From Desertimonas flava (GTDB lineage: Bacteria > Actinomycetota > Acidimicrobiia > Acidimicrobiales > Ilumatobacteraceae), in the NCBI RefSeq assembly GCF_003426815.1, contig NZ_QKYK01000013.1:62001-126000 (forward strand): 64,000 bases of DNA. Reading direction: 5' to 3'. The notes beneath the pieces are model-generated. The model made no database searches, was not told where the DNA came from, and saw only the letters and a program-made list of their open reading frames with translations. Numbering within the stretch: position 1 is the first letter of the stretch; each line of letters opens with the position of its first letter. The translations under genes and the position numbers were made by a program. This document shows, piece by piece, positions 50,591 to 60,195 of this stretch.

Positions 50591-50685
50591 CGTTCGCCGG
50601 ACTGTCGCCGCGGGCGGGTGACGTGCATCACTCGGGCCTGCTTGCTAGGACGTAGGTGCCCGAGCAACAAAGGAGAGTCACCGCC

Positions 50686-51630
50686 ATGACCCGCTCACCC
50701 CGCCGCAACCGCCTCGTGATCGGCGCCTCGGTCGCCGCTGCCGCCTTCGGCACGCTTCTCGTCGCCCACTCCGCGTCCGCCAGCACGCCACCCTCCGACC
50801 CACCCTCGAGCGACGCCTCGCCCCCCACCGGCGGTGCCGACTACGACGCCCTCGTCGACACCATCGTGTCAACGAGCGCCGAGAGCGGCATCCCGATGAA
50901 CCGCGACTGCGTCGCCGGGATCGTCGAGCAGGTCCCTGCGGACGACGTGGCGGCGATCCTCGCCGAGGTCGAGGCGTCGGCCACGGTCGCCGACATGCCG
51001 ATGCCCGACATCTCGATGCCCGACCTGGGCGAGATCTCGATCCCCGAACTGCCCGATATCTCGATGCCCGACCTGGGCGACATCTCGATCCCCGAACTGC
51101 CCGACATCTCGATGCCCGACCTGGGCGAGATCTCGATCCCCGAACTGCCGGACATCTCGATGCCCGACCTGGGCGACATCTCGATCCCCGAACTGCCCGA
51201 CATCTCGATGCCCGACCTCGGTGACATCTCGATCCCGTCGGTCCCCGCCATCTCGATCCCGCCGATTGGGGACATGGGCCTGTCGCCCGAGACGCTGGCC
51301 TTGTCGCAGCAGCTCGTCACGTGCGTCGACGGCGACGCCGACCCGGCGCTCGTCGAGCAGGTCGTCGCCCTCGCCGAGTCGTCCACGCCCCCTGGCGTCC
51401 TCGACCTCGAGTGCGCCTCGAAGATGCTGTCGACCTTCCCTGACGAGGTGCTGCAACAGATCGTCGACACCGGGGCCGTCCAGGCCGATCCCACCGCCGT
51501 CGATCCGACGATCGCGGCCGAAGTCGCCAAGCTCCTCGCCTGCACCGACCTGAGCACGATCACGGGAACCGCCGATGCCCCCGCTCCGTCCGTCGCCGCA
51601 GACGCCGCGCCGGTGACCACCGTCGGCTGA
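50686..51630 (+). CDS. Secreted protein with central 16-residue tandem repeats
   Basis: A 314-residue exported protein that I do not recognise. A signal peptide (LVIGASVAAAAFGTLLVAHSASA) is followed by a Pro/Ser linker, a short helical module with one cysteine (C75), the repeat region at residues 108-187, and a C-terminal helical module with C213, C243 and C286. The repeat unit is DISMPDLGEISIPELP, built from two octads of the form [D/E]-I-S-[M/I]-P-x-L-x. There are five copies, the last degenerate, then AISIPPIG. AAAGGAGAG gives a strong ribosome site. The regular I-x-P spacing suggests an extended or beta-solenoid structure outside the cell. Confidence 0.8.
   Translation: MTRSPRRNRLVIGASVAAAAFGTLLVAHSASASTPPSDPPSSDASPPTGGADYDALVDTIVSTSAESGIPMNRDCVAGIVEQVPADDVAAILAEVEASATVADMPMPDISMPDLGEISIPELPDISMPDLGDISIPELPDISMPDLGEISIPELPDISMPDLGDISIPELPDISMPDLGDISIPSVPAISIPPIGDMGLSPETLALSQQLVTCVDGDADPALVEQVVALAESSTPPGVLDLECASKMLSTFPDEVLQQIVDTGAVQADPTAVDPTIAAEVAKLLACTDLSTITGTADAPAPSVAADAAPVTTVG
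51007..51246 (+). repeat. Five 48-bp tandem repeats inside the secreted protein gene
   Basis: Five in-frame 48-base units encode DISMPDLG(E/D)ISIPELP. The E/D position runs E, D, E, D, D, so a 96-base higher-order unit is visible in the first four copies. Near-identity at the DNA level points to recent expansion by slippage or recombination. Copy number may vary between strains. Confidence 0.9.
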
Positions 51631-51649
51631 GTCGTCCCGATCTCCTGGT

Positions 51650-51685
51650 CACGGGCCGGCCGATCGCCGGATCGGCCGGCCCGTG
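51650..51685. terminator. 16-bp stem hairpin between convergent genes
   Basis: Arms 51650-51665 (starting CACGGGCCGG) and 51670-51685 are perfect complements around loop GCCG. It lies 20 bases after the repeat-protein stop and 14 bases before the end of the opposing gene, a position fitting a bidirectional terminator. Confidence 0.7.
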
Positions 51686-51698
51686 GCGCGTCCGGCGT

Positions 51699-52190
51699 TC
51701 AGGCCGTCGTGGTGGCGACGGGCTCGGTGGTGGTCGTGGTGGGCTGCTGATCGGTGATCAGTGTGAGGTCGACCAGGCGCTCCTCGCCGATCGTGGCGCG
51801 AAGCGCGATCACGAGGTCACCCGGCTTGAGCGCGTAGCAGACGAACTGCTGACCGGTCTCACCGCTCGCCGGCTTGGAGCACGCCGCGTCGGTGACCTCG
51901 AGCTGGAACTGAGACTGGATGTACGACGGGATCAGGCCCTCGGCGGCGAATCGCGCCTCGTTGCCGGACGCGAACCCGACGATCGCCGTGGTGGACGCCT
52001 CCGACGCCGTGGGCGCTGAGGTCGTCGCGGGCGCGCCGGTCGTCGGCACCGCGGTCGTGGTGGGCGCAGCTCCCGGAGCGAGACCATCGCCGTTTCCGAC
52101 CGCCATCGCGGCGAGCCCGGCAACCGCCGCGAGCGGCAGGACGACCGCCGACACGAGGGCTGGACGTCTACGCCGTTCGACCGCACTCAT
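51699..52190 (-). CDS. Membrane-anchored protein with Thr-rich linker and two-Cys domain
   Basis: A 163-residue protein with an N-terminal membrane anchor (ALVSAVVLPLAAVAGLAAMAV), a Thr/Ala/Pro linker, and an outer domain with two cysteines in TDAACSKPASGETGQQFVCY, followed by GDLVIALRATIGEERLVDL. The C-x-x-P...G...C-x-A spacing resembles DUF4333-like secreted domains; this is a weak match by eye. A second Thr-rich tail ends the protein. ATG 52190 is preferred over an upstream in-frame start at 52286, because it places the basic RRRR directly before the helix. Confidence 0.6.
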   Translation of the reverse strand: MSAVERRRRPALVSAVVLPLAAVAGLAAMAVGNGDGLAPGAAPTTTAVPTTGAPATTSAPTASEASTTAIVGFASGNEARFAAEGLIPSYIQSQFQLEVTDAACSKPASGETGQQFVCYALKPGDLVIALRATIGEERLVDLTLITDQQPTTTTTEPVATTTA

Positions 52191-52358
52191 TGGGCGAACC
52201 GTAGCGGCCTTTGCCAGGGAAGTGGTGGTGGGGGGCTTGACCGTGTCAGTCGAAACTGGCTTGAAACTCTGCGAGCTGAAGTCCATACTCCGCCGTCAGG
52301 GCCGCCGCCGCGGGCGCAGCGGCGGCCCGTATGGGTGGGAACGGGGCATGATGGACCC

Positions 52359-59580: not shown

Positions 59581-60195
59581 TCAACCCCGAGTCGTCGTCG
59601 TGGGCTTGGCGGCGGCCTTCTTGGCCGCGGGCTTCTTAGTCGCAGGATTCCTGGCAGCGGGCTTCTTGGCCGCCGGCTTCTTCGCCGGTTCGGCTGGCGG
59701 CGGGGGAGGGGCGGCCGGAGCCGGCCGGCTCATCCCCGGGAGCTTGAGGCCGAACATGCCGCCGGCCGTCTCGGCGAGCTGGGACAGCGGACCGAGACGG
59801 TGGACGAGATCGTTGATCGCGTCGAGGAACGAGCCGAGGTCGGTGGGCAACGCGGCGAGCACCGGCGAGTTCAGGGTCTCGGCGAGCCGGACGAGGCCGG
59901 GGATCACCTCGTCGAGCGGTCCGGAGAGCCGGGTGGCGAGGTCGTCGGCGGTCTTCAGGGTGCGTGTCACCTGAGGCATCAGGGCCCGCACCGGTTCCTC
60001 GAACTCGTTCAGCAGGCGGTTGACGCGCGCTGCCGTCTCGTTGAGCGACTCCATCGTCGTGTTGAAGTTCTCGAGTCCCCGCATCAGCTCATCGCTGCCC
60101 TTGCGGAGCTGCTCGAACGAGCGCACGACGGCGGCGATCGGCCCGGCGACGAGCGAGATGAGATCCGAGATCGGGTCGGTGCGCGGGTCAGCCAT
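59581..60195 (-). CDS. Helical protein with histone H1-like Lys/Ala tail
   Basis: A 204-residue protein. The N-terminal ~140 residues are amphipathic and coiled-coil-like (LRKGSDELMRGLENFNTTME, LNETAARVNRLLNEFEEPVR, LKTADDLATRLSGPLDEVIP), and the linker is Pro-rich. The C-terminal ~40 residues repeat K-x-A-A-K (PAKKPAAKKPAARN, KKPAAKKAAAKP), as in histone H1-like and HupB tails. It may bind DNA, polyphosphate or granules; a phasin-like role is also possible. It is placed between the convergent gcvT and downstream of gcvP on the minus strand, with no evident link to glycine cleavage. Confidence 0.65.
   Translation of the reverse strand: MADPRTDPISDLISLVAGPIAAVVRSFEQLRKGSDELMRGLENFNTTMESLNETAARVNRLLNEFEEPVRALMPQVTRTLKTADDLATRLSGPLDEVIPGLVRLAETLNSPVLAALPTDLGSFLDAINDLVHRLGPLSQLAETAGGMFGLKLPGMSRPAPAAPPPPPAEPAKKPAAKKPAARNPATKKPAAKKAAAKPTTTTRG

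Follow-up and report, generated by a model that had tools for sequence, protein, structure and literature searches.

An acidic octapeptide array in a predicted interhelical loop of an exported-looking protein from Desertimonas flava

Described repeat systems and the encoding gene

Proline-rich repeats with a unit of eight residues characterize the cornifins (SPRR), and the repeats of AHNAK resemble the repeated hydrophobic-proline-acidic motifs of the periaxin type. Periaxin itself possesses a PDZ domain and a mixed-charge PEVK-rich region, a pentapeptide tract whose composition, according to a review, suggests at least partial extension or disorder, although the review gives no experimental evidence for this region (PMC7072810). 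The protein considered here is encoded in a 64,000-nucleotide stretch of the Desertimonas flava genome (hereafter, the window), and contains an array of octapeptides. It resembles the cornifins in having proline-rich repeats of eight residues and the PEVK-rich region of periaxin in the repetition of a short hydrophobic-proline-acidic motif with regularly placed proline. However, the loop of the window protein is exported-looking and purely acidic, whereas the PEVK region is described as being of mixed charge, and this is a likeness with no homology shown. The Cornifin/SPRR family (PF02389) matched the window protein with E-value 0.011 and 16.4 bits, below the gathering cut-off of 34.8 bits, and membership was rejected. 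Neither a PDZ family, the trait of periaxin and AHNAK, nor an RTX-type Ca2+-binding beta-roll family was found for it in Pfam at E ≤ 1, the HMMER filters dropping most matches above about 0.1.

Within the host's family, the window protein shares a helical module with two-cysteine four-helix lipoproteins (L034, L018, L077, and L102 from Ilumatobacter sp. MAG), in which the module often occurs twice in tandem. Common to both are the conserved cysteines, an aspartate at Cys+12, a serine starting helix 4, an exported-looking sequence, and acidity. In most of the lipoproteins a lipobox-like site is present and some 10 residues connect helices 3 and 4; in the window protein the signal is of the cleavable type, and the connection holds an octad array of 92 residues. 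On balance, we favour the reading that the locus encodes an exported-looking protein with two tandem modules of this kind, the second weakly supported, and that the acidic array between helices 3 and 4 of the first one (module A) is a recently grown, flexible display or spacer loop of the cell envelope. Profile and alignment argue for the two-module architecture and the loop insertion, as detailed below.

The ORF listing and the sequence give a protein of 314 aa plus stop, encoded on the plus strand at 50686-51630. The ATG start at 50686 was preferred over a GTG at 50656, because a Shine-Dalgarno-like AAAGGAG was seen by eye at about 50669-50675 on the same strand. The minus strand has long open frames at 50841-51620 and 50869-51456, and the third-position GC content of the former (93%) is as high as that of ORF 50686-51630 (92%), two points in favour of a rival reading in which the coding frame lies elsewhere and the octads are a by-product of a GC-rich tandem repeat. 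We consider this reading exceedingly improbable. In coding DNA, the GC content at the first codon position usually exceeds that at the second, as it does in ORF 50686-51630 (68/51/92% at positions 1/2/3), while in the minus-strand frame (46/67/93%) it is lower; ORF 50686-51630 is preceded by the ribosome-binding-like site; and, counted strongly against the rival frame, this ORF alone among the 644 stop-to-stop frames of at least 50 aa in the window matched the module profile at E ≤ 10. The alternative frame was rejected on the GC positions and the profile match.

The N-terminus (50686-50784, plus strand) looks by eye like a signal peptide, with RRNR, a hydrophobic stretch, and an AxA-type end, SASA. 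The protein thus appears exported, in agreement with the initial annotation, which had called it secreted and had correctly counted four cysteines in total (aa 75, 213, 243, and 286). Since no cysteine precedes aa 75, the protein lacks a lipobox, a site that is usual in the module family, if not defining: a lipobox-like site was found, by a permissive pattern, in 45 of the 51 listed module ORFs. The usual lipid anchor of the family would be replaced here by a cleavable-type signal, in which case the protein is probably released or non-covalently held in the wall. The mature part is strongly acidic (50 Asp+Glu versus 3 Lys+Arg in 281 residues), a property common to the whole module family and not peculiar to the octad array, whose acidic faces had initially been proposed as possible Ca2+ binders. 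The sequence ends in an Ala/Pro-rich tail (51556-51627, plus strand), with AlphaFold pLDDT below 50 from aa 301 on.

Position of the octad array in module A

A first module profile was built from 25 modules of relatives, cut by hand, with the window protein left out. On the window protein this profile splits, aa 53-97 corresponding to model positions 2-47 and aa 194-216 to positions 46-68; aa 231-286 were matched as well. The first part of module A (50833-50991, plus strand; 26 bits for aa 53-97) comprises helices 1-3 with Cys75, predicted by AlphaFold at residues 50-66, 73-80, and 85-102, and the second part (51271-51333, plus strand; 4.8 bits for aa 194-216 alone) comprises helix 4 with Cys213, predicted at residues 201-213. 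TRF, profile, alignment, and AlphaFold place the octad array with its edge (aa 104-195; 50995-51270, plus strand) in the helix 3-helix 4 loop, the octads proper occupying 51007-51270 (aa 108-195). With the array left out, module A was matched over its full length in one piece at 40.6 bits, while none of 2,000 shuffles exceeded 12.0. In a blind excision grid (n = 5,329, aa 51-217), the top score, 47.8 bits, was obtained by removing aa 95-192; the 17 removals lying at most 3 bits below the best, with starts at 94-102 and ends at 187-199, correspond to the octad array. The array had initially been placed between two helical modules; according to the profile and the excision grid, it is located within module A, with one cysteine preceding it and three following.

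The same position emerges when the window protein is aligned with 20 relatives, 19 of them with two modules and one with a single module, picked from 51 distinct ORFs, the window's own among them. The array occupies a single gap in this alignment, and across the 21 rows (alignment A3) C75, D87, and C213 are invariant, while S200 is conserved in at least 90%. The hallmarks of the family, that is, the conserved cysteine pair, the aspartate at Cys+12, and the serine starting helix 4, are all present in the window protein. Its Cys-Cys spacing in module A is 138, because of the inserted array, versus 40-49 (a usual, not a defining range) in all 20 aligned relatives.

Module B (51334-51555, plus strand) is weakly supported. 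It carries a cysteine pair (Cys243 and Cys286) and four predicted helices (AlphaFold residues 220-233, 241-250, 253-266, and 274-284). Its profile score of 11.2 bits is little above 10.4, the highest value among the 1,999 shuffles scored, and its cysteine spacing of 43 falls outside the range of 25-38 seen in the second modules of 19 relatives. A second profile (A2), made of 17 modules, again with the window protein left out, was used to search the whole genome; it recovered module A at E-value 2.6e-5, the match stopping at model position 48 of 72, while module B and the second part of module A were absent from its matches at E ≤ 0.001.

AlphaFold modelled a canonical relative with mean pLDDT of 80.9, eight helices, and the helix 3-helix 4 loop at residues 70-79. 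In the model of the window protein (mean pLDDT 66.4), the helices match those of the relative, and residues 103-193 have no secondary structure, with pLDDT of 44-70 in ten-residue blocks. As the AlphaFold input contained no homologous repeats, this does not prove that the array is disordered; a structured repeat lacking homologues in the alignment can also yield low confidence. Together with the strict recurrence of I and P at every eighth residue, in units of 16, the latter consideration leaves some room for the initial suggestion of a rigid rod or beta-solenoid of octads, joining two helical heads at the surface. We regard it as improbable, as the array stands in place of some 10 loop residues inside one module, so that both its ends lie at neighbouring helix ends and must meet, AlphaFold predicts no strand in it, and 19 of its 92 residues are proline and none is basic. 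Searches of the PDB singled out no known fold: Foldseek gave no matches at E ≤ 0.001, the top VIA Z was 3.7, and nothing useful was found by sequence.

To judge from the conserved cysteines, the pair in each module may form a disulphide, in which case the array would be an extended, flexible loop anchored by its two ends in a helical scaffold closed by the cysteines. We infer that it most likely acts as a flexible display or spacer/contact loop outside the membrane, in the envelope, rather than as a rod or an enzyme.

Repeat structure and origin of the array

The octapeptide I-S-x-P array reported in the initial annotation is confirmed by 11 [DEA]IS[MI]P cores in the window protein, compared to a maximum of 2 in 20,000 shuffles of its sequence, and by a tandem period of 48 nt (TRF; 4.9 copies, 95% matches), along with a period of 24 nt (9.7 copies). 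Near-identity, which had been ascribed to five units, holds for units 1-4 (pairwise identity 45-47/48, i.e., 1-3 differences) and does not extend to unit 5, identical to them at 38-40 of 48 positions (8-10 nt changed); a partial sixth unit has 23-26/48 identical positions with the other units (22-25 differences). A higher-order unit of 32 residues was rejected, since its basis is a single codon column, reading E, D, E, D, D, and the two further columns with variation in units 1-4 do not conform to the E/D alternation; besides, unit 1 is equally close to unit 4 and to unit 3 (47/48 in both cases). The near-identity of units 1-4 supports the earlier claim of recent expansion, and the array probably grew through tandem duplication of the 48-nt unit. 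Its length in the assembly may be mis-sized.

Such growth could also have been neutral, or nearly so, with replication slippage expanding an insertion-tolerant loop into an array that has no specific task. Units 1-4 show a single nonsynonymous difference, as expected of a very recent event, and in all 20 aligned relatives the loop between helices 3 and 4 lacks an insert. On the other hand, unit 5 retains the I-S-[MI]-P cores despite its nucleotide changes, and further proteins of the lineage (L002, L039, L041, and L003) display similar octad-like patterns, which makes this explanation rather unlikely in our opinion, if by no means negligible. The array represents a tandem repeat growing inside the loop of a domain instead of in a linker or at a terminus, and is a natural case for studying how repeat insertions are tolerated and act at the surface.

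A possible seed of the array is the helix-cap motif of the loop itself, P-[DE]-[IV]-S. Of the 20 relatives, unweighted for closeness, 8 have the pattern P[DEQ][IVL]S in the Cys-Cys segment, while 5,000 shuffles gave 0.12 on average and never more than 3; as the pattern resembles the octad core P-D-I-S, amplification of a part of the loop itself may have produced the array. This origin is not unique, since octads are also present in L002 and L039, which do not match the module profile (0.6 bits for the best domain of each) and were not accepted as members of the module family.

A search of 200 genomes of the host's family with an octad profile yielded matches at E ≤ 0.01 in 13 genomes, at 16 places, four of which, besides the window, we judge to be real octads. 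Octad-like tracts form linkers or tails in other proteins of the family: a C-terminal tract in the lipoprotein L002, from the same genome as the window; a tract following the lipobox in L039; the C-terminal tail of the HD-domain protein L041; and a tract in L003, an ORF truncated by the beginning of its contig. That octad DNA was recently copied between the window and L002 was rejected, the best ungapped identity being 51/72. The octad pair (16 residues) could be seen as folding into a new compact acidic insertion domain, a repeat fold with two ends that docks on its helical host, and [IV]-[ST]-x-P-[DE] octads as an extracytoplasmic building block of general use in the lineage, serving as a loop in the window protein, a tail in L002 and L041, and a linker in L039; we give this proposal little credence. 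Short octad-like linkers, VPDLSIPEGVEIS and VDIPEGVQVT, join the two modules in the relatives L030 and L082.

Several other candidates were discarded. L006, L042, L043, and L048 were rejected, whether as relatives or as octads; L045 is a lipoprotein with T-V-P-D tracts instead; the matches L004, L007, L040, L051, and L052 in genome G007 are overlapping frames of one repeat; and the frame matched in L049 was not confirmed. L044, L046, and L047, found in three genomes of genus g25, represent a small protein with I-x-L-P spaced motifs, no visible signal, and no octad period. The weak match L108 in the window's own genome (E-value 0.4) was attributed to chance.

In the class, 7 of 345 genomes had octad matches. 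Exported-looking ORFs L097 and L100 contain S/T-VPD octad tracts, and the lipoprotein L098 contains P-D pentads. These 8- or 5-residue V/I-P-D repeats, Pro/Asp spacer tracts in exported-looking proteins, resemble the window array, but sequence and architecture differ, and the likeness is most likely convergent. A tblastn search of plasmids with the window protein returned three records, by repeat resemblance; one of these likenesses, to similar WP[DN][LI][ST]xP[DE] repeats of a Halobacterium plasmid protein (L114, 940-2223) with no Pfam match at E ≤ 0.01, is probably convergent as well.

Distribution of the module family and genomic neighbourhood

The module family appears to be uncatalogued and nearly confined to the host's lineage, to judge from sequence searches. 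As noted initially, the family of the window protein is not a recognised one: no Pfam match was above the cut-off and no NCBIfam match was found. Of seven further proteins (one of which, L002, does not match the module profile), none reached a curated cut-off in Pfam or NCBIfam, and no Pfam family matched more than two of the 21 members of alignment A3, with the best E-value of 0.0016. Scans of genome contigs and viral contigs with the window protein confirmed no relative, and nothing relevant was found, by title, in the literature on Ilumatobacter lipoproteins and tandem repeats or on Acidimicrobiia lipoproteins and domains of unknown function.

When used directly as a query, the window protein had matches at E ≤ 0.001 in 5 of 61 genomes, its own included, mostly by likeness of repeats or low-complexity segments. 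One of these matches, L005/L008, is a lipoprotein of 121 residues that carries the helical module once and lacks an array. Used as a query in turn, it had matches at E ≤ 0.01 in 61 of 150 family genomes, a count that includes matches to the lipoprotein start only, and recovered module A of the window protein at E-value 4.2e-5. With the A2 profile, the module was found in at least 46 of 200 genomes of the host's family (E ≤ 0.001) and, at E ≤ 1e-4, in at least 10 genomes among 345 of the class, of which nine belong to the host's family (its own genome included) and one to another family of the order; these counts are lower bounds, as candidates in some genomes were scored in part. The host's genus is represented by this one genome. 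The module may thus be an uncatalogued, nearly lineage-restricted exported helical module of environmental actinobacteria. Module lipoproteins L075 and L069 (genomes G092 and G079) and L077 (G075) belong to clusters of three adjacent genes each, which suggests duplication.

No pathway was seen in the ORFs neighbouring ORF 50686-51630. Nearby ORFs had Pfam matches to DUF222, RibD_C, HhH-GPD (endonuclease III-like), SRAP, and an HxlR-type regulator. Between ORF 50686-51630 and the convergent minus-strand ORF 51699-52286 lies a strong hairpin (51648-51687; 18 pairs, no T tract, -43.1 kcal/mol, z -6.3), a probable shared bidirectional terminator. The convergent ORF is itself exported-looking, with a Thr-rich tail, two cysteines, and no Pfam match at E ≤ 1. 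At a greater distance, a 15-nt array at 59605-59687 encodes a basic tail of the KPAAK type in a minus-strand ORF ending at 59581.
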